Below are positions 16,444-27,830 of a DNA stretch of 64,000 nucleotides, in pieces. Source of the stretch: Chelatococcus sp. YT9. GTDB taxonomy: Bacteria > Pseudomonadota > Alphaproteobacteria > Rhizobiales > Beijerinckiaceae. The position numbers were made by a program, and so were the translations under genes. The notes beneath the pieces were generated by a model. The model saw nothing but the letters and a program-made list of their open reading frames with translations. It ran no database searches and was not told the origin of the DNA. Where the stretch lies: positions 1,112,001-1,176,000 of the forward strand of contig NZ_JAHBRW010000001.1 of NCBI RefSeq assembly GCF_018398315.1, given 5' to 3'. Position 1 is the first letter of the stretch. The number at the start of each line of letters is the position of its first letter.

Positions 16444-17679
16444 ATGGCCGAGAGCACCAATCCGCCGGCGGACAACGAGGTGCGGCCCATGCCAGCCACA
16501 CGACGCCGACGCTCGCGCTGGCGCCTCGTGCTCGCCGCCGTCACCGTGCTAGCCGCGGGAGCCGGGGCCATGGGCTACATGCGTGCCGCCTCGGAAACCG
16601 AGACGCGGGCAGAACCTGTAACGGCGGTGGCGACGCGCGGTGATATCGAGGATGCTGTATCCGCTCTCGGCAACATTCAGCCGCGGGACTATGTGGATGT
16701 GGGCGCCCAGGTGTCGGGCCAGCTCAAGCAGATCCACGTTGTCGTGGGCCAGGAAGTGCCCAACAATTTCCTGCTGGCCGAGATTGATCCTGTCGTGCTT
16801 GTCGCGCGGGTGGAGGGTGGACGGGCCCAGCTCGCGAGCCTGAAGGCTCAGCTCGTCGATCGGCAGGCGCAGGCAACCCTTGCCCGCCAGGTCTTTGAAC
16901 GGCAGGGCAGGCTGCGCCGCGACAAGGCGACGAGCGAAGAGGCCTACGAGAGCGCCGATGCAGCGGCGCGCTCAGCCGAGGCACAGGTCGATATGCTGAA
17001 AGCCCAGATCAGCCAGGTCGAATCGACCATTCGCGGGGATGAGGCTACGCTCGGCTACACCAAGATCTTCGCGCCCATGGCCGGAACGGTGGTTTCGCTG
17101 ACCGCGCGCAAGGGCCAGACGCTGAACACCAATCAGCAGGCGCCGATCATCCTGCGCATCGCCGACCTGTCGACCATGACGATCTGGACCCAGGTCTCGG
17201 AAGCGGATGTGTCGCGGCTCAAGCTCGGCATGAAAGCCTATTTCAATACGCTCGGCATGCCGCAGCGGCGCTGGACGGGCACGCTTCGGCAGATCATGCC
17301 GACGCCCGAAGTCGTCAACAACGTGGTGCTCTATACCGCGCTGTTCGATGTCGCCAATCCCAAGCAGGAATTGATGACGCAGATGACGGCGCAGGTCTAT
17401 TTCGTGGTGGCGGAGGCCCATGATGTCGTCTCTGTACCGTTTTCTGCGGTGAAACGAAGCGGTCGCGAGCGGAAAGCGACCGTCGATGTCGTCCGTGATG
17501 ATGGCTCGATCGAGACCCGGCCCGTGGAGGTCGGCGTGACCAATCGTGTGTTGGCCGAAATCCGCGCCGGTATTGAACCCGGCGAGCGTGTGGTGATCGG
17601 CAACCGCACCGACGACGCCCGCACCGCGCAGGGCGGCCGCCCCGGCGGCCCTCCGGGCCTGCCCCGCATGCGCTTCTGA
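16444..17679 (+). CDS. macA: MacA-type periplasmic adaptor
   Basis: Membrane-fusion protein linking the MacB transporter to an outer-membrane channel. It has a basic N-terminus, a membrane anchor near residues 22-42, the biotinyl-lipoyl half motif VDVGAQVSGQL (about 82-92), a coiled-coil hairpin (about 125-200) rich in Ala, Glu and Gln, and KIFAPMAGTVVSL on the return strand. A Gly/Pro-rich tail ends the 411 residues. It is the first gene of a three-gene efflux operon, 12 bp before macB. Confidence 0.93.
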   Translation: MAESTNPPADNEVRPMPATRRRRSRWRLVLAAVTVLAAGAGAMGYMRAASETETRAEPVTAVATRGDIEDAVSALGNIQPRDYVDVGAQVSGQLKQIHVVVGQEVPNNFLLAEIDPVVLVARVEGGRAQLASLKAQLVDRQAQATLARQVFERQGRLRRDKATSEEAYESADAAARSAEAQVDMLKAQISQVESTIRGDEATLGYTKIFAPMAGTVVSLTARKGQTLNTNQQAPIILRIADLSTMTIWTQVSEADVSRLKLGMKAYFNTLGMPQRRWTGTLRQIMPTPEVVNNVVLYTALFDVANPKQELMTQMTAQVYFVVAEAHDVVSVPFSAVKRSGRERKATVDVVRDDGSIETRPVEVGVTNRVLAEIRAGIEPGERVVIGNRTDDARTAQGGRPGGPPGLPRMRF

Positions 17680-17691
17680 CGCGGCCGCGCC

Positions 17692-19695
17692 ATGAACGCC
17701 GAGCCTGATCCTCGCCAATCTCTCACGAAGCCGAAGGTGGCCATCCAGCCGCTCATCGAACTCGACGGCATCACCAAGGTCTACGTGACTGAGGGCGGCG
17801 TGCGCGCCGAAGCGCTGAAGGGGGTCTCGCTCACCATCTATCCCGGCGAATTTGTCGCCATTGTCGGATCCTCCGGCTCCGGCAAATCAAGCCTGATGAA
17901 CATTCTCGGCTGTCTCGACAGGCCGACCTCAGGTCGTTACCGCTTCGCCGGGCGCGACGTCGAAGATCTCTCGCGCGACGAACTCGCGCAGCTCCGGCGG
18001 CACGAATTCGGCTTCGTCTTTCAGAGCTACAACCTCATCGCAAACGCGACTGCCGTGGAGAACGTCGAGATCCCGGCCATCTACGCGGGCCGGCCCGCTA
18101 GCGAGCGCCACGAGGCTGCAGAGAGCATCCTGACCAGCCTCGGGCTTGGCGAGCGATTGACGCATTTGCCGAACCAGCTCTCCGGAGGTCAGCAGCAACG
18201 CGTCTCGATTGCCCGCGCGCTGATGAATGACGGCCGCGTCATTCTCGCCGACGAGCCGACCGGCGCACTCGACAGCAAGAGCGGTCAGCAGCTGCTCGAC
18301 CTTATGAAGCGCCTTTCGGACGAGGGGCGCACCATCATCCTGATCACCCACGACCGCAATGTCGCCGCGCAGACCCGTCGCGTGGTCGAGATCCAGGATG
18401 GACGCATCCTGTCCGACACGGGCAATGATCTAAGCCATCTCGACCGCACGGTGTCCCACGGGCTGCCGGCCCATCCGGCACCGGCGAACCGCCACCCCGC
18501 CGGCCAAATGGCCGAGGCGGCCAAGATGGCGATGCGGGCCCTGGGGACCAATCCGTTTCGCACACTGCTGACGCTGCTCGGAATCATGATCGGCGTCGCC
18601 TCCGTCATCGCCATGCTTGCCGTTGGAGAGGGAGCCAAGCGGAACGTGCTCGACCGCGTTTCGGCCATGGGCAGCAACCTTCTGCTGGTCCGGCCCGGCG
18701 CGCCGAACCAACGCTTCTCAGCAGGTGGCTCGGTCACCAGCCTCATCCCCGCGGACGCGGAGGCCATCGCAAAACAGGAGAATGTGGTCGTCGCCGTGCC
18801 AGAGATCTCGTCCTCAGTGACAGTGCGCGGCGGCCGCGTCGACTACAGCACCCTCGCCACGGGGACGACCTCCGGTTATCCCGTCGCCCAGCGCTGGGAT
18901 ATCGCGCATGGCACCTTTTTCACACCCGAGGATGCGGAAAGCTACGCTGCGGTAGTGGTTCTCGGCACGACTGTCGCGAATATCCTTTTCCCTGACGGGG
19001 AGGAGCCACTCGGGCGGTTCATCATCATCAACAATGTCCCATTCCAGGTCATCGGCGTGCTGGCCCCCAAGGGAGCGAATGCGGGCGGACGGGATATGGA
19101 CGATGTGATGATCGTTCCGATTACCACCGGCAGCCTCCGGATTTTTGGTCGACGCCATGTTCAATCGATCACCGTCGCCGTCGCGGATACGAGCCGGATC
19201 GATCAAAGCGAGGCGGACGTGCGGGCTCTCCTCACGGATCGGCACGGCAAGGAAGATTTCCAGATCCGCAACATGGCGTCGCTGATCGAAACGGTGTCGG
19301 CCACGGCGAATACGATGACGGTGCTGCTCGGCTCCATCGCGGCCATCTCCCTCCTTGTCGGCGGCATCGGCGTCATGAACGTCATGCTGATGAGCGTCAC
19401 CGAGCGCACCCGTGAGATCGGCATCCGCATGGCGACCGGCGCCGCAACTCGCGACATATTGAGCCAGTTCATGACGGAGGCCTTCGTCATATCAGCCTGC
19501 GGAGGCATCGCAGGTATCGCACTGGGCTTCTTCGCCGCGTGGGTCACAACTCTCACCGGCATGACGGTGCAGCTCAGCGCGGGCCCGGTTCTCCTTGCTT
19601 TCGGCTGCGCGGTCAGCACGGGCTTCCTTTTTGGTCTCGCTCCTGCGATCAAGGCCTCCCGCCTTGATCCCGTCGTCGCGCTCGCCAACGAATGA
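17692..19695 (+). CDS. macB: MacB-type ABC efflux transporter
   Basis: Fused ATPase and permease that expels macrolides, lipopeptides or other periplasmic substrates mechanically through a TolC-like channel. The ATPase domain has Walker [10 protein letters not shown] (59-67), signature LSGGQQQR (164-171) and ILADEP (185-190). A linker follows, then a first membrane helix near 290, a large periplasmic domain and three C-terminal helices with [17 protein letters not shown]. 667 residues, slightly over the usual 645. Its last codon overlaps the next gene as ATGA. Confidence 0.95.
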
Positions 19696-21095
19696 AGCTC
19701 AAGTCAATCATCGGCTATGGCTGCAGCGCGGCCCTGATGACCTCGATCGCGGGATGCGTAGGCACGCCCGCTGAGAGGCCGGTGATGTCCGAACCGCGCG
19801 GCTGGAGCGCACCGCTCGCCACCAATGCGCCGACCTGGCCGGCGCCGGGATGGTGGAGCGGGTTCGGCAGCAGGGAGCTCGACAAGGTCGTCATCACGGC
19901 CCATGCCAACAACACTGATATCGCCATCGCGGCGGCGAGAATCTTGCAAGCTGAGGCGCGCACCCGCGTGGTCGGAGCCGCGCTGTTCCCGAGCATCGGT
20001 TTCGATGCTGACGCGGCCTTGCGCGGCAATGCCGGCAACAGCAACGTCACCCGCTCTTACGGGGCCGGCGTCGGCGGCAGCTACGAGGTGGACCTTTGGG
20101 GGCGGCTTCGAGCGAACGAAGCGGCGGCTGAGGCCACGCTGCGGGCAAGCACGGCGGACCAAAGCACGGTCGCGCTGAGCATCACGGCCGATGTCGTGAA
20201 CAATTACCTGACCGTGCTTTCCCTACGCGACAGGTTGCGCATTGCTCACTCGAACCTCACCAACGCCCGCAGCGTGCTCAGCACCATAGAGGCGCGCGTC
20301 CGCGCCGGTGCGGGAACAGATCTTGACCTGGCGCAGCAACGGGCCGTGATCGCCGGCCAAGAGGCCACGCTGCCACAGCTGGAACGGCAGGAATTCGAGG
20401 CCCGTTCGGCCTTGGCGGTCCTCCTGGACCAACCGCTCGATACATTCACCGTCGCTGGGAACTCGCTGTCCGGCATTCGCGCGCCGCAGGTCAAACCGGG
20501 GCTGCCCTCCGAGCTTCTGACGCGCCGCCCCGATATCAAGGCGGCAGAAGAGCGCCTGGCCGCAGCCGGCGCCGATGTCCAGGCAGCGCGCGCCGCCTTC
20601 TTCCCCACGATCAATCTGACTGGCACCACAAATCTTGCCAGCACCGCGCTGACATCCCTGTTCAGTGGTGGAGCCTTCGGCTACGGCCTCGCCGCCGGGC
20701 TTGTGCAGCCGATCTTCGATGGCGGACGGCTGATCGGCCAAAGGGATCTCGCGCTCGCCAGCCAGCAGGAGCTTATCGCGAGCTATCGCGCAGTCCTCGC
20801 TTCCGCCTTCGCCGATGTCAGCGTCGCGCTCAAGGCGGTCGAGACCCTGAACAGGCAGGCCGTTTTCGTCGCCGAACAGCAGCGCCAAGCCCAGATTGCG
20901 TTCCGGCTCGCCGACGCGCGCTATCGCGCCGGCGCAACAGATCTCATCACGCTGCTCGACGCGCAACGCACCCTGTTTCAGGCGGAAGATCAGATGGCGG
21001 TGATGAATCTTCAGCGCCTGCAGGCCAGTGTCGGGCTGTTTCGAGCGCTGGGCGGCGGCTGGCAAGCCACTCCGGCCAGGACAGCGAGCCGTTAA
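19692..21095 (+). CDS. Outer-membrane efflux factor, NodT family
   Basis: TolC-like trimeric channel of the RND/MacAB type, 467 residues. The lipobox SIAGC places the lipidated Cys at 22. Two outer-membrane-factor repeats follow, with the signature [18 protein letters not shown] (about 275-292) near the start of the second. It overlaps macB by four bases (ATGA), so the operon encodes a complete envelope-spanning pump. Confidence 0.94.
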
Positions 21096-22482: not shown

Positions 22483-24081
22483 GTGACCGCAAGTGCCACC
22501 AAGACGAGCGCGGCCTTTCAGGAGCCTCGCGCGGACAAGCGCGACACCGAAAGCGTGCTGCGCGAACGGGAAGCACGGCTACGCTCCATCCTGGAGACCG
22601 CCCCGGAAGCGCTCGTCACGATCGACGAGCGTGGCCTCATCGAATCATTCAGCAAGTCCGCCGAGATCCTGTTTGGTTACGGTGCCGACGAAGTCGTCGG
22701 GCGCAACGTCAGCATGCTCATGCCGGCCCCACACCGCGCCGCCCATGATGGCTATCTCAGCCGCTATCTCGCGACAGGCGAAAAACGCATCATCGGGATC
22801 GGCCGCACCGTCGAGGGCTTGCGCAAGGACGGCTCGACATTCCCGATGGAACTCGCCGTTGGCGAGGCTGTGGCCAATGGCCGGCGTCTGTTCACAGGCT
22901 TCATCCGCGACCTCACCTCTCGCCATCGCATGGAGCAGGAACTGCGCCATGCCCAGAAGATGGAAGCCATCGGGCAGCTCACCGGCGGCATCGCCCACGA
23001 CTTCAACAATCTCCTGACAGTCATCCTCGGCAATCTCGAGATGCTCGAGCGTCGGCTGCAGCCCGACCCCCTCAAGCACACTCTGGTCCGCGAGGCCCAG
23101 GAGGCTGCCCAGCTCGGCGCGCAGTTGACGGAACGCCTGCTCGCCTTCGGGCGCAGGCACCCTCTTGATCCCAAGCTGGTCGACATCAGCAGGCTCGTCA
23201 GCGAATTCGCCGGACTGTTGCGGCGCACGTTGGGCGAGACCGTGCAGGTGCGCATGGTCGTGGATGAACATAATCTGCAGGCCGTCGTCGATGCATCGCA
23301 ATTGCAGAACGCCCTGCTCAATCTCGGCATTAATGCGCGGGATGCCATGCCCGACGGTGGCCGGCTGACGATCGAGGTCAGCCGCGCCGAACTGGACAGC
23401 AGCTATAGCGAAATCTATCCGGACGTGACCGCCGGCCACTACGTGCTGATTGCGGTGACAGATGGGGGTTCCGGCATGAGTTCCGAGGTGCGGGACCGCG
23501 CCTTCGAGCCGTTCTTCACGACCAAGGAGGTCGGTGCCGGTACAGGATTGGGCCTCAGCCAAGTCTATGGCTTCGTCAAGCAGTCCGGCGGCCATGTCCA
23601 GCTCTACAGCGAACCAGGCCATGGCACGACTGTCCGGCTGTTCCTGCCGGTCGTCGTTCAGGACCGGGCGGGCGATGCGGCTTCATCAACGGACACCCCG
23701 ACCCTGTTACCGCGCGCAAAGGGCGAGACAATTCTGGTCGTGGAGGACGACCCGCGCGTGCGCCGCGTCACTGTCAGCCGCCTGCGCGATCTCGGCTATC
23801 ACGTGCTGGAAGCCGAGAACGGCCCGCTCGCCCTCGAGATGTTTCAGCGGCACGAAGATGTCGCTCTCGTCTTTACGGACATGGTGATGCCAGGCGGCAT
23901 GACCGGTGGCGATCTTGCGACGGCGGTACAAGCGCTACGCCCAGCCATCAAGCTCCTGCTCACGTCGGGCTATGCCGAACCGGACCTTGTCATGCGGCAT
24001 CCGGCATCGACCGCCCAATGGCTGATGAAGCCCTATACGACGGCGACCCTGGCCAGAAAGCTTCGCAGCGTGCTCGATTGA
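22483..24081 (+). CDS. fixL: Hybrid FixL-like heme-PAS oxygen-sensing histidine kinase
   Basis: Soluble kinase of 532 residues read from a GTG. The PAS domain (about 34-145) resembles FixL closely: [11 protein letters not shown] places His88 at the proximal heme ligand position and Arg94 nearby, while IIGIGR puts Arg108 at the position of the distal Arg that senses oxygen. HisKA follows (phospho-His172 in GGIAHDFNN), then HATPase with [14 protein letters not shown] (280-293) and GTGLGLSQ (353-360), and a C-terminal receiver with Asp466 and Lys516. No membrane helix is seen. A FixL with a fused receiver is the 'hybrid FixL' form known from Rhizobium leguminosarum and R. etli. The kinase call is certain; heme binding is inferred. 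Confidence 0.85.
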
Positions 24082-24110
24082 GCGCTCGCACAAATAGAGT
24101 GTCAGGACGA

Positions 24111-24851
24111 TCAGCTCCGGGCGACCGCACCTGTGAAGACATAGCCGACGCCACGCACGGACTTGATCAGCGAGGGACTGCTGGGATCGATGTCGAGCTT
24201 GCGGCGCAAGCGCCCCACTTGCGCGTCAATGGTACGATCGAAAGCTTCCCAATGACGTCCGCGGGTCAGATCCATGAGCCGATCGCGATCGAGCACGCGC
24301 CCGGCGTTGCTGACGAAAACCGCAAGCAGATCGAACTCGCCGGTGGTCAACGCGACGTCGTCACCGGTGGGCGCCGTCAGTTGCCGGCGATCCAGGTTGA
24401 GCAGCCATCCGTCGAAGCGTACGGTCTGCTCCGCTGAGGAAGCGGCTTGGCCGGACGGCCGGGCGCTCGGCTGCAGGCGCCTGAGCACGCTTTTGACCCG
24501 CGCGTGAACCTCGCGCAGATGAAAGGGCTTGGCGATATAATCGTCAGCACCGACTTCCAGGCCGACAACCCGGTCGATCATATCGCTGCGCCCCGTCAGC
24601 ATGATGATGCCGATGTCCGGGCGGGCACGGATCTCCTTCGCGAGGGTGAAACCGTCGTCGCCCGGCATCATGAGGTCGAGCAAGACGAGATCGATATGCT
24701 CGCGCTCAAGAGCGGCGCGCATGGCTGGCCCGCCGTCGGCCAAGGAGACCTTGAAACCCTCGCCGTCGAAATAGCGATGGAGCATGTCCCGGATGCGAAC
24801 TTCGTCGTCCACCACGAGGATATGCGCTGTTCCTTTGTGGTCGTCGCTCAA
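24111..24851 (-). CDS. fxkR: OmpR/PhoB-type response regulator, FxkR-like
   Basis: Receiver plus winged-helix regulator. The receiver begins HILVVDDEVRIRDML; the phospho-Asp lies in LVLLDLMMPGDDG (Asp59 from this start). The DNA-binding domain ends SLIKSVRGVGYVFTG. The TTG at 24851 has GGAGCGGG just ahead; the frame is open to 24884, where another TTG would add 11 residues. It is convergent with the hybrid FixL-like kinase and divergent from the FixK gene, exactly the partners expected for FxkR, the OmpR-class regulator that joins hybrid FixL to fixK in Rhizobium etli. The OmpR class is sure; the FxkR role rests on context and the nearby K-box-like repeat. Confidence 0.8.
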   Translation of the reverse strand: MSDDHKGTAHILVVDDEVRIRDMLHRYFDGEGFKVSLADGGPAMRAALEREHIDLVLLDLMMPGDDGFTLAKEIRARPDIGIIMLTGRSDMIDRVVGLEVGADDYIAKPFHLREVHARVKSVLRRLQPSARPSGQAASSAEQTVRFDGWLLNLDRRQLTAPTGDDVALTTGEFDLLAVFVSNAGRVLDRDRLMDLTRGRHWEAFDRTIDAQVGRLRRKLDIDPSSPSLIKSVRGVGYVFTGAVARS

Positions 24852-24883
24852 ACCCGCTCCAAACGCCAGCTTCACCTTCACCA

Positions 24884-24899
24884 ATTACAAACTGTTACA
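24884..24899 (+). promoter_or_regulatory. K-box-like direct repeat in the fxkR-fixK divergent promoter
   Basis: ATTACA-AACT-GTTACA: two direct hexamers, 10 bp apart centre to centre. It differs by one base from GTTACA-N4-GTTACA, the FxkR-binding K-box as I recall it from R. etli. It lies 87 bp before the fixK ATG and 33 bp before the chosen fxkR start, so it could serve both. Confidence 0.65.
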
Positions 24900-24985
24900 C
24901 AATCGCGCAGATTGTTGCGATAGTTCTGACACGCGCGTCACACGGTCGGGCTTTTCTCATTGTCGTACCTCCACAGGAGAGCGCC

Positions 24986-25756
24986 ATGGAGACTCTGACC
25001 ACCGCCTTGACGGCCGCCCCCGTCTTTCCATTTCCCGCCCGGCAGCCCGCTCTGGGCGCGTGCGAGGCCTATGCGACGCGAGCCGGACAGGAGGGGGCAA
25101 GCCTCGACGCACTTTTCCGCAATGCCGCGCTCGAGTCGTTCGATGCTGGTCAAACCGTGTTCTGGGAGGGCGACGGCGCCGGCGATGTCTTCACTGTTGT
25201 AGAAGGCCTTCTGCGGCTCTACCGGTCCCTGCCCGACGGGCGCCGTGCGATCACGGGTTTTGCCTGTGCGGGCGAGATCGTCGGCATCGCCTTCTCGCGC
25301 CGCTATCCCTGCAGCGCCGAGGCTGTTGCCGAGATCAAGCTCCGCCGTGTGTCACGTCGGAGCTTCTACACCGCCGCCGACGAGATCCCGCGCCTTCACT
25401 CGGACGCGCTCGCGACCATCGCGAAGGAGTTGGCCCGAGCCCAGGACCAGATCGTGCTGCTCGGTCGCAAAACAGCGGATGAGCGCGTAGCGAGCTTCAT
25501 TCTCGCCATGGCCGAGCGCATCGGTCACTCGCCGCGGGAAATCGACCTGCCGATGAGCCGCCTCGACATGGCCGACTACCTTGGCCTGACCATCGAGACG
25601 GTGAGTCGCGTCCTCACGCGCATGCAGCGTGACGGGTTGATTTCCTTCCGCGGCCGTTACCACCTGATCATCGAGCGTCCACGCTGCCTGCGTGAGCTCG
25701 GCGGCGGGGCCGACGAGGCGCGGGACGACGATCTCCCGCTGGCGTGCACCGGTTAG
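24986..25756 (+). CDS. fixK: FixK-type Crp/Fnr transcription factor
   Basis: 256 residues. A cyclic-nucleotide-like domain (about 45-130) is followed by the dimer helix (135-160) and a helix-turn-helix (190-215) with MADYLGLTIETVSRVLTRM. Glu204, Ser207 and Arg208 form the E-x2-SR motif of the FNR/FixK group that reads TTGA half sites. The Fnr iron-sulphur Cys cluster is absent (only Cys26 lies near the N-terminus), so it is FixK-like and probably not itself an oxygen sensor. It has a normal GGAG ribosome site, and a K-box-like repeat lies upstream. Likely targets nearby are the two FixK boxes at 26997-27031. Confidence 0.88.
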   Translation: METLTTALTAAPVFPFPARQPALGACEAYATRAGQEGASLDALFRNAALESFDAGQTVFWEGDGAGDVFTVVEGLLRLYRSLPDGRRAITGFACAGEIVGIAFSRRYPCSAEAVAEIKLRRVSRRSFYTAADEIPRLHSDALATIAKELARAQDQIVLLGRKTADERVASFILAMAERIGHSPREIDLPMSRLDMADYLGLTIETVSRVLTRMQRDGLISFRGRYHLIIERPRCLRELGGGADEARDDDLPLACTG

Positions 25757-25835: not shown

Positions 25836-26909
25836 TCAAGGCGTAATCGCCACCTTCAGCACGCCGTCGCGCTGGTGGGAGAAAAGGTCATAGGCCGTCT
25901 CGATATCGTCGAGCTTGAACCGATGCGTGACGAGCGCCGTCAAGTCGGCGCGGCCCGACGCGATGACGCCCATCAGGCGTCGCATCCGCTCCTTGCCGCC
26001 GGGGCAAAGCGCCGTGACGATGCGGTTGTCCCCGAGACCGGCGGAAAAGGCGCTGAGGGGAATAGTCAGGTTGCTGGAATAAACGCCGAGGCTCGACAGC
26101 GTCCCGCCCGGTCGCAGCACGCGCAGCGCCGATTCAAAGGTGCCCTGCGTCCCGAGCGCTTCGATCGATACGTCGACACCGCGGCCGTCGGTCAGAGCCA
26201 TGATCTGCTCGACGGGATCGCCCTGCTTGAAATCGACCACATGGTCGGCCCCCAGCTTTCTGGCAACGGCCAGACGCTCCGGCACGGTGTCGACGCCGAT
26301 GATCGTCGTGGCTCCCATCAGCTTGGCGCCGGCCACGGCGCACAGCCCGATCGGCCCGAGCGCGAAGACGACAACGGTATCGCCGATGCGCACGCCGCCG
26401 TTCTCAGCACCTGAAAACCCGGTCGACATGATATCCGGACACATGAGGACCTGCTCGTCCGTCAGATGATCCGGCACCGGGCTCAGGTTCACCATGGCGT
26501 CCGGCACTCGGACATACTCGGCCTGTGCACCGTCGATCGTATTGCCGAATTTCCAGCCACCGGTGGCCTTGAAGCCATGACGCGTGTCCGGGCCGTCCTG
26601 CGATGCGCAACCGCACAGACATGCATAGCTATGGCCGCTCGGGGTGATGGCACCGGCGATAACGCGTTGTCCCTCGCGATAGCCCGTGACGGCGGAGCCG
26701 AGCTTCTCGATGATGCCAACGGGCTCATGGCCGATCGTCAGCCCCTTGGCAACGGGGTATTCACCCTTGAGAATATGGACATCCGTGCCGCAGATCGTTG
26801 TCGTCGAGATGCGCAGAAGTGCGTCGAGCGGTCCGATGTCCGGTATGGGCTTCTCATCGAGGACAATCCGGCCGGGTTCGACGAAGATGGCGGCTTTCAT
26901 CTTGGGCAT
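25836..26909 (-). CDS. Zinc-dependent alcohol dehydrogenase
   Basis: Medium-chain NAD(P)-dependent dehydrogenase, 357 residues. The catalytic zinc site is TICGTDVHI (Cys near 38) with GHEPVG (His-Glu near 60); the nucleotide fold has VVVFALGPIGLCAVAG and ends the strand at VDTVPERL. The ATG at 26909 has GGGAGAAG eight bases upstream. It resembles the formaldehyde dehydrogenase-like alcohol dehydrogenases; the natural substrate is not readable. A TATAAT at 26970-26965 and two FixK boxes precede it, which suggests induction when oxygen is scarce. Confidence 0.9.
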   Translation of the reverse strand: MPKMKAAIFVEPGRIVLDEKPIPDIGPLDALLRISTTTICGTDVHILKGEYPVAKGLTIGHEPVGIIEKLGSAVTGYREGQRVIAGAITPSGHSYACLCGCASQDGPDTRHGFKATGGWKFGNTIDGAQAEYVRVPDAMVNLSPVPDHLTDEQVLMCPDIMSTGFSGAENGGVRIGDTVVVFALGPIGLCAVAGAKLMGATTIIGVDTVPERLAVARKLGADHVVDFKQGDPVEQIMALTDGRGVDVSIEALGTQGTFESALRVLRPGGTLSSLGVYSSNLTIPLSAFSAGLGDNRIVTALCPGGKERMRRLMGVIASGRADLTALVTHRFKLDDIETAYDLFSHQRDGVLKVAITP

Positions 26910-26996: not shown

Positions 26997-27010
26997 TTGA
27001 CGTCGATCAA
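26997..27010. promoter_or_regulatory. FixK/FNR box 1
   Basis: TTGAC-GTCG-ATCAA, fitting TTGA-N6-TCAA. It lies between the divergent dehydrogenase and CBS-BON genes. Confidence 0.75.
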
Positions 27011-27017
27011 GTGTCGT

Positions 27018-27031
27018 TTGATCGCTGTCAA
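27018..27031. promoter_or_regulatory. FixK/FNR box 2
   Basis: TTGAT-CGCT-GTCAA, fitting TTGA-N6-TCAA. Its centre is 21 bp (two helical turns) from box 1, so both dimers would sit on the same DNA face. Confidence 0.75.
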
Positions 27032-27083: not shown

Positions 27084-27830
27084 ATGAAAGCCTCGGATGT
27101 CATGACGACCACTGTGATGAGCGTGCCGGCGAATGCGACGATCGCCGACACTGTCCAGTTGCTCATCGAGCATGGGTACAGTGGTCTTCCCGTTGTGGAT
27201 GGGGCCGGCCAGCTCGTCGGTATCGTGACCGAAGGTGACCTCCTGCGGCGAGCCGAGCTCGGAACCGAGACCAAGAGGCCGCGCTGGCTATCCTACATCC
27301 TGGGGCCTGGTCGTCTCGCCGAGGATTACGTGCAAGCCCATGCTCGCCGTGTCGAGGAGGTGATGACCCGCGAGGTCGCGACCGTCGCCCCGGAGGCGAG
27401 CCTTGAAGATGTTGTGGCCCTTATGGAAAGCAAGAGCGTCAAGCGTATCCCGGTCGCGCGCGATGGGCGGCTCGTCGGCATCATCACGCGTGCGGACCTT
27501 CTCAAGGCGCTGAATGTTGCCCTGCTTCGTCGGCCGGAACCCGCCCGTGGAGACGCCGCGATCCAGGAAGCAATCACGGCCGAGATTGCCAAGCAGGCTT
27601 GGGCGCCGGTCAATGGCGTCGACATCTTCGTCCGCGATGGAATCGTGCATCTCGTCGGCGTGATCGTTACCGACGAAGTCCGCTATGCCTTGAAAGTGCT
27701 GGCCGAGGGCATTCCCGGCACCAGGGCGGTGAAGGACCACCTGACTTATGTCGAGCCGGTCTCCGGCATGTTCATCGAAGCCCCAGATGGCCCCGCGCCG
27801 GAAGAATTCACGGGCGGCGGGAAGGATTAG
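27084..27830 (+). CDS. CBS-pair and BON domain protein
   Basis: 248 residues: CBS domain 1 (about 5-60, with YSGLPVVDGAGQLVGIVTEGDLL), CBS domain 2 (about 93-145, with VKRIPVARDGRLVGIITRADLL), and a C-terminal BON domain (about 165-230, with VRDGIVHLVGVIVTDEVRYAL). CBS pairs bind adenine nucleotides; BON domains often bind membranes. Proteins of this build belong to anoxia or stress regulons in several proteobacteria. The ATG at 27084 has AAAGGAG ahead; the long open frame upstream is not coding. It is probably activated from the FixK boxes. Confidence 0.9.
   Translation: MKASDVMTTTVMSVPANATIADTVQLLIEHGYSGLPVVDGAGQLVGIVTEGDLLRRAELGTETKRPRWLSYILGPGRLAEDYVQAHARRVEEVMTREVATVAPEASLEDVVALMESKSVKRIPVARDGRLVGIITRADLLKALNVALLRRPEPARGDAAIQEAITAEIAKQAWAPVNGVDIFVRDGIVHLVGVIVTDEVRYALKVLAEGIPGTRAVKDHLTYVEPVSGMFIEAPDGPAPEEFTGGGKD

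Follow-up and report, generated by a model that had tools for sequence, protein, structure and literature searches.

The hFixL-FxkR-FixK cascade, composed of a hybrid FixL-type kinase (hFixL), the response regulator FxkR and the activator FixK, has been found in Rhizobium etli, Rhizobium leguminosarum and Sinorhizobium meliloti, and its origin has been placed in the ancestor of the Rhizobiaceae (PMC4999443). The operator of this circuit, the K-box, reads GTTACA-N4-GTTACA (PMC7888657; PMC4999443); for R. leguminosarum (johnstonii) 3841 (hereafter Rlv3841), Table 1 of PMC7888657 puts the K-box of both fixK9a and fixK9b at -62 relative to the transcription start. The available portions of the open-access literature naming FxkR or hFixL, including PMC4999443, PMC7888657 and PMC7769827, yielded no report of the cascade outside the Rhizobiaceae. 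Here, we describe a gene cluster from Chelatococcus sp. YT9, contained in a stretch of 64,000 nucleotides that was analysed as a whole (contig NZ_JAHBRW010000001.1, positions 1,112,001 to 1,176,000; henceforth the window). The cluster very probably encodes a complete hFixL-FxkR-FixK low-oxygen cascade, situated on the largest contig of a bacterium without detected nifD. The kinase and fxkR genes are arranged tail to tail, fixK is divergent from fxkR, and a K-box stands between the latter two:

22483..24081, + strand: hFixL-type hybrid sensor kinase, assigned from Pfam, identity and haem-residue alignment, with the Pfam domains PAS (22576-22911), HisKA (22972-23157), HATPase_c (23290-23652) and Response_reg (23731-24063)
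24111..24884, - strand: response regulator of the OmpR family and FxkR type, with an uncertain start codon, assigned from identity and clade support (96/96)
24884..24899, + strand: K-box ATTACAAACTGTTACA, its 3' end 87 bp 5' of the fixK ATG; it abuts or overlaps the fxkR start
24986..25756, + strand: FixK-type activator of the Crp/Fnr family that lacks an FNR-like cysteine cluster, assigned from Pfam, NCBIfam, identity and PDB match 4i2o

A preliminary description of the window had marked three frames at 22483-25756 with a K-box-like site at 24884-24899, and had read them as the whole cascade in one cluster. The frames appear at those positions in the open reading frame list of the window, the site is where it was marked, and the operator sequence that it gave for comparison agrees with PMC7888657 and PMC4999443. 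Its reading is supported by homology, clade membership, conserved sensor residues, and conserved sites with their geometry.

Among the closest known systems is hFixL9-FxkR9-FixK9a/9b on pRL9 of Rlv3841, whose proteins are identified here by record coordinates consistent with Table 1 in Rutten et al. 2021 (PMC7888657). The two systems have the same kinase architecture, FxkR, FixK type, and K-box sequence and distance; identity amounts to 59% for the kinase, 62% for the regulator, and 49% (FixK9b) or 44% (FixK9a) for FixK, and hFixL9 has about 110 extra N-terminal residues. Their settings differ: the Rlv3841 genes reside on a megaplasmid with fixNOQP, the kinase is in an operon with fixK9a and FnrN is present, whereas the window is on the largest contig, its kinase is convergent with fxkR, FnrN was not found among the Crp/Fnr matches examined, and the probable targets are cydDCAB and phaC. 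Plasmid clusters of S. meliloti and S. medicae (L003, L116) share the divergent fxkR/fixK pair and have a zero-mismatch K-box, with kinases 63% and 64% identical (the S. medicae match covers residues 17-532, 97% of the length), FxkRs 62% and FixKs 42%. They differ in their fixK-kinase operon and, in S. meliloti, in the coexistence of FixLJ (PMC4999443). For R. etli CFN42, we infer from similarity and tree place that the p42f regulator (L001), recorded just as 'response regulator', is FxkR; it is 63% identical to that of the window and shares its clade, but its record shows a Crp/Fnr gene at a distance of about 1.3 kb instead of an adjoining divergent fixK, and the setting is symbiotic. The FixLJ-FixK systems of S. 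meliloti, Bradyrhizobium japonicum and Caulobacter have the haem-PAS sensor and FixK output in common with the window. A FixLJ identity was rejected for the cluster, the regulator of which is OmpR-type and not FixJ (NarL-type); fixJ itself was not searched for.

The kinase joins HisKA and HATPase domains to a fused C-terminal receiver carrying its Asp, and its PAS domain is of the FixL haem type. In S. meliloti FixL (SmFixL), H194 is the haem ligand and R214 a conserved Arg. The PAS domain aligns without gaps over 125 residues with the SmFixL structure 1d06, placing His88 and Arg108 at the equivalent positions. These residues were tabulated for 50 kinases besides SmFixL, 38 of them from loci where fxkR and fixK are divergently adjacent, and both are kept in 33 of the 38. 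One of the five exceptions (L213) is truncated by a contig end; the other four are considered below.

The regulator carries the Pfam domains Response_reg and Trans_reg_C, which makes it OmpR-type, and its start may be TTG 24884, GTG 24881 or an inner TTG near 24851. Two phylogenies were built from regulators collected by similarity to it: a quick tree with 140 members, and a careful tree restricted to 79 of these, without 60 non-clade relatives and Escherichia coli PhoB. In both trees, one clade of 51 rows takes in all 43 loci with a divergently adjacent fixK, supported by a Shimodaira-Hasegawa-like approximate likelihood ratio test (SH-aLRT) value of 97 in the quick tree and by ultrafast bootstrap (UFBoot)/SH-aLRT values of 96/96 in the careful one. 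The window regulator and the rhizobial FxkRs make up a set of 35 rows (95/92), and a set of 26 rows (92/86), from which the genus of the window is absent, unites the rhizobial reference FxkRs. E. coli OmpR, TorR and ArcA, together with the paralogue from the same genome (L127), fall outside the FxkR clade, as does PhoB in the quick tree. The regulator thus groups with FxkR and not with an unrelated OmpR subfamily, a grouping that would have refuted the preliminary description. Eight clade members lack an adjacent fixK: a FixK-like gene is located farther away in L001, L006, L122 and L201, and none was seen within the stretch in L012, L027, L047 and L204.

Situated between fxkR and fixK, the operator reads ATTACA-AACT-GTTACA, one mismatch away from the published K-box, and ATTACAAACTGTTACA is unchanged across the four genomes of the genus that were compared, namely that of the window (G000) and three others (G001, G002 and G003). 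All four also share synteny over the cluster and its flanking regions. Taken alone, the site is unremarkable: with up to two mismatches allowed, the window holds one against a mean of 0.44 expected, and 36 of 100 shuffles held at least one. TTACA-N4-GTTACA occurs twice in the 6.74-Mb genome; the second site (C1:3301799, L124) was rejected as a further target, the frames around it being phage-like as judged by eye. In a non-redundant set of 33 fxkR/fixK loci (FxkR identity below 85%), a K-box is present on the fixK strand with at most one mismatch in 18 and at most two in 27, so that the conservation 5' of fixK orthologues, the absence of which would have refuted the preliminary description, is seen in this set as well as in the genus. 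Permuted half-sites (n = 179) gave means of 0.03 and 0.66 loci at the same two thresholds, with maxima of 1 and 12, the highest-scoring permuted repeats being shifted or reverse K-box forms; spacers of 0-12 other than 4 gave at most 1 and at most 3. A chance K-box is rejected by these controls, and the placement and conservation of the site are not due to chance.

The distance to fixK is likewise constrained. The comparison comprised 44 rows for 43 distinct loci (L010 appears twice; L126, which duplicates L016, was left out). In 30 of these rows, a site on the fixK strand with up to two mismatches ends 80-97 bp before an in-frame ATG; the best K-box-like site at L226 has four mismatches. The 87 bp of the window compares with 88 bp for fixK9b and 86 bp for fixK9a in Rlv3841. 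In G001, extra unrelated DNA is present between the fxkR start and the K-box (L119:7367-7644; C4 about 364366-364643), and the K-box-fixK spacing is preserved, so the box stays with fixK.

FixK itself comprises the Pfam domains cNMP_binding and HTH_Crp_2, and its best PDB match is B. japonicum FixK2 (4i2o). FNR holds its Fe-S cluster through a set of cysteines; the window protein, with a single Cys within its first 40 residues, lacks this set. It also ranks first among 31 HTH_Crp_2 matches in the genome.

Probable targets are suggested by FixK-type boxes (anaeroboxes), two of which (TTGAY-N4-RTCAA, 26997-27031) are located in a 174-bp gap between two genes beside fixK:

25836..26909, - strand: zinc-dependent alcohol dehydrogenase-family protein, probable FixK target
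26997..27010, no strand assigned: FixK-type box TTGACGTCGATCAA, same letters in all four genus genomes
27018..27031, no strand assigned: second FixK-type box TTGATCGCTGTCAA, same letters in all four genus genomes
27084..27830, + strand: CBS-BON domain protein, probable FixK target

The pair constitutes the sole TTGAY-N4-RTCAA sites in each 14-17 kb stretch examined in the four genomes. Elsewhere, a perfect TTGAT-N4-ATCAA box is found 4.5-4.6 kb upstream of cydA in all four, heading a MarR-like gene, cydD, cydC, cydA and cydB. A conserved TAGTAT (TAATAT in G002) follows 29.5-34.5 bp from the box centre on the cyd side, a spacing as in class II FNR promoters. Another perfect box precedes phaC in all four genomes, its half-sites kept and its spacer letters varying; in G000, phaC and this box are on the second-largest contig. 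Anaerobox matches with up to two mismatches are at chance level in the window (12 found, 12.3 expected), so what counts is how the boxes are paired, where they lie and whether they are conserved. Perfect anaeroboxes number 8 in G000, 14 in G001, 11 in G002 and 5 in G003. The conserved sites were selected after inspection, and loci were given for 15 of the 30 perfect boxes of G001-G003 plus the cyd and phaC stretches, leaving more conserved boxes possible. The perfect box at C1:3011705 was rejected as a target; it is inside a coding frame, and G002 has a counterpart in the homologous stretch.

Some further observations concern these regions. Just 5' of the MarR-like gene heading cydDCAB, a perfect 20-bp palindrome, ATTTCAGAAATTTCTGAAAT (L238:5060-5079; C1 about 3025059-3025078), is identical in all four genus genomes and is possibly the operator of the MarR-like regulator. 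The sister genome G002 contains two perfect anaeroboxes 136 bp apart (L276; C1 3111524 and 3111660). On a plasmid of Neorhizobium petrolearium (L117), fixK and an hFixL-type kinase are located between cydAB and nap genes, with no fxkR in the stretch. Moreover, cyd operons are already among the described FnrN/FixK targets (PMC4999443).

From these elements, a low-oxygen switch can be proposed, although all regulation in it is deduced from sequence. When O2 leaves its haem PAS, the kinase would phosphorylate FxkR, either directly or via the fused receiver. Phosphorylated FxkR would bind the K-box and switch on fixK, and, because the K-box abuts the fxkR start, would probably limit its own synthesis as well. 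Through TTGAT-N4-ATCAA boxes, FixK would then act on marR-cydDCAB, the operon for the bd quinol oxidase, and on phaC, encoding polyhydroxybutyrate (PHB) synthase, and through the box pair on the adjacent dehydrogenase and CBS-BON genes. The host contig (C1, 4.37 Mb, largest of seven) is probably the chromosome. By model, nifD has no match in the genome (of 14 control genomes, three register with the model, one of them above its cut-off), and symbiotic nitrogen fixation is thus not indicated by nitrogenase genes; nod genes were not searched for. The suggestion in the preliminary description that this is a general microaerobic circuit gains from the nifD negative and from FixK-type boxes that are conserved at genes for respiration and storage, and the circuit is probably of that kind. 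Further upstream in the window (16444-21095), a MacAB-TolC-like efflux operon, judged by eye, encodes a membrane fusion protein, an ABC transporter and an outer-membrane factor.

Several observations weigh against this reading. All three proteins score below the equivalog cut-off of the NCBIfam model concerned: the kinase reaches 265 of 850 bits for FixL, only its fifth-best model, with other kinase models scoring higher; the best model for the regulator is OmpR (252.5 of 331 bits); and FixK attains 160.6 of 300 bits for FixK, its best model. At the cyd box, a cation-efflux gene diverges at 107-109 bp, and at the phaC box an alkaline phosphatase gene diverges in three of four genomes (none matched in the G001 stretch), so these divergent genes could be the targets instead. 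A search with Rlv3841 ccoN, run with no positive control, found no relative in the genome at an expectation value (E) of 1e-10. The cascade may be the main FixK/FNR-type oxygen input, since neither an FnrN-like sensor, among the Crp/Fnr matches examined, nor a second FixL-like sensor was found. The scope of both searches tempers this point. The four HTH_Crp_2 matches ranking next after FixK, among them L131 (29% identical to FixK9b), are not FixK/FNR-like, and 26 of the 31 were not read; the best other FixL-like PAS in the genome is only 36% identical, in a search with no positive-control genome.

Other explanations account for part of these data. A homologous cascade could sense a signal other than O2, such as redox state, nitric oxide, carbon monoxide or another haem ligand, with the same K-box and FixK logic. 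Three related loci, in which the alignment indicates that the partner kinase has lost the haem His (to Gly at L125, and to Phe at L229 and L235), show that haem is not a constant feature of the cascade; the L016 kinase match begins at the HisKA part and reaches no PAS, which was therefore not compared. Other sensors may drive FxkR in those loci. For the window this explanation is unlikely, as its kinase retains both His and Arg in the gapless alignment with SmFixL. At all four of these loci, fxkR, fixK and mostly a K-box-like site are retained beside the altered or unmatched kinase PAS, and a sensor swap is possible there.

The regulator might also be an ordinary OmpR-type autoregulator with a box for itself, FixK being a neighbour under other control. 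Its recognition helix is similar to that of E. coli OmpR, and K-box-like sites with at most one mismatch, two of them perfect, precede 14 among 94 relatives that have no fixK beside them, a control group that includes some FxkR-clade members and duplicates. Thirteen of the 14 are outside the FxkR clade, and the remaining one, L126, duplicates a clade locus. The K-box is thus a habit of a wider OmpR branch, and a site near a regulator proves little by itself and would not have identified FxkR. Even so, autoregulation as the whole account is very improbable, given that every locus with a divergently adjacent fixK falls within the single clade of 51, that the box keeps its strand and distance relative to fixK in 30 of 44 rows, and that in G001 it has been parted from fxkR with its distance to fixK unchanged. 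Equally improbable is a recent acquisition of the cluster from a symbiotic plasmid of rhizobia, which would make it a symbiotic relic instead of a native circuit. The top plasmid-collection matches are indeed Rhizobium and Sinorhizobium plasmids, in a collection that consists of plasmids only; however, identity to the rhizobial proteins is 42-64%, the synteny extends to all four genus genomes, the genus is outside the 26-row rhizobial reference set, and the gene order differs, with the kinase convergent with fxkR. As for the K-box-like sites outside the clade, the OmpR-type regulators L023, L029, L031, L217, L222 and L232 have such a repeat 66-90 bp upstream of the matched stretch, and several inspected non-clade sites have a large frame directly downstream that looks, by eye, like a membrane kinase.

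The complete low-oxygen cascade also has relatives well beyond this genus. In a sample of the order, at least 42 of 397 genomes contain a match to the regulator with E no higher than 1e-71, and some of these matches are not FxkR; the count is a lower bound because only six candidates were scored per genome. All 44 places listed from this search besides that of the window were examined. Of 30 short loci (L085-L114), seven places were re-examined in wide form, besides the paralogue, and the short loci were left out of the counts; among the omitted ones, L095 and L096 have the divergent pair with a K-box at 0 and 2 mismatches, respectively. Two duplicates (L126 and L198) and one locus of insufficient length (L077) were removed. 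The divergent pair is also found in Microvirga, Devosia, Methylocystis, Shinella and Ensifer. Across the 43 loci, fixK and the kinase form an operon in 18, the kinase is convergent with fxkR in 16 (the type of the window), it is located elsewhere in four, and it was not found within the stretch in five.

The circuit itself was already known; what is new is the host, the gene order, the probable regulon, in which bd-oxidase and PHB genes are probable targets, and the spread beyond the Rhizobiaceae. The presence of the cascade, with its operator and spacing, in a genus without detected nitrogenase (one genome tested) calls into question the origin proposed in the ancestor of the Rhizobiaceae (PMC4999443). 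Chelatococcus also provides a simple system in which the cascade can be studied free of visible FnrN feedback, with bd oxidase and PHB synthase as testable targets. Quite possibly, although we advance this tentatively, the cascade is an old chromosomal respiration switch of the Hyphomicrobiales, governing bd oxidase, PHB storage and dehydrogenases and serving as the sole FixK/FNR-type O2 input in some lineages. It would then have been taken over for symbiosis in the Rhizobiaceae rather than having arisen there, and its haem sensor would have been swapped for another kinase in side branches, with FxkR, the K-box and FixK kept.

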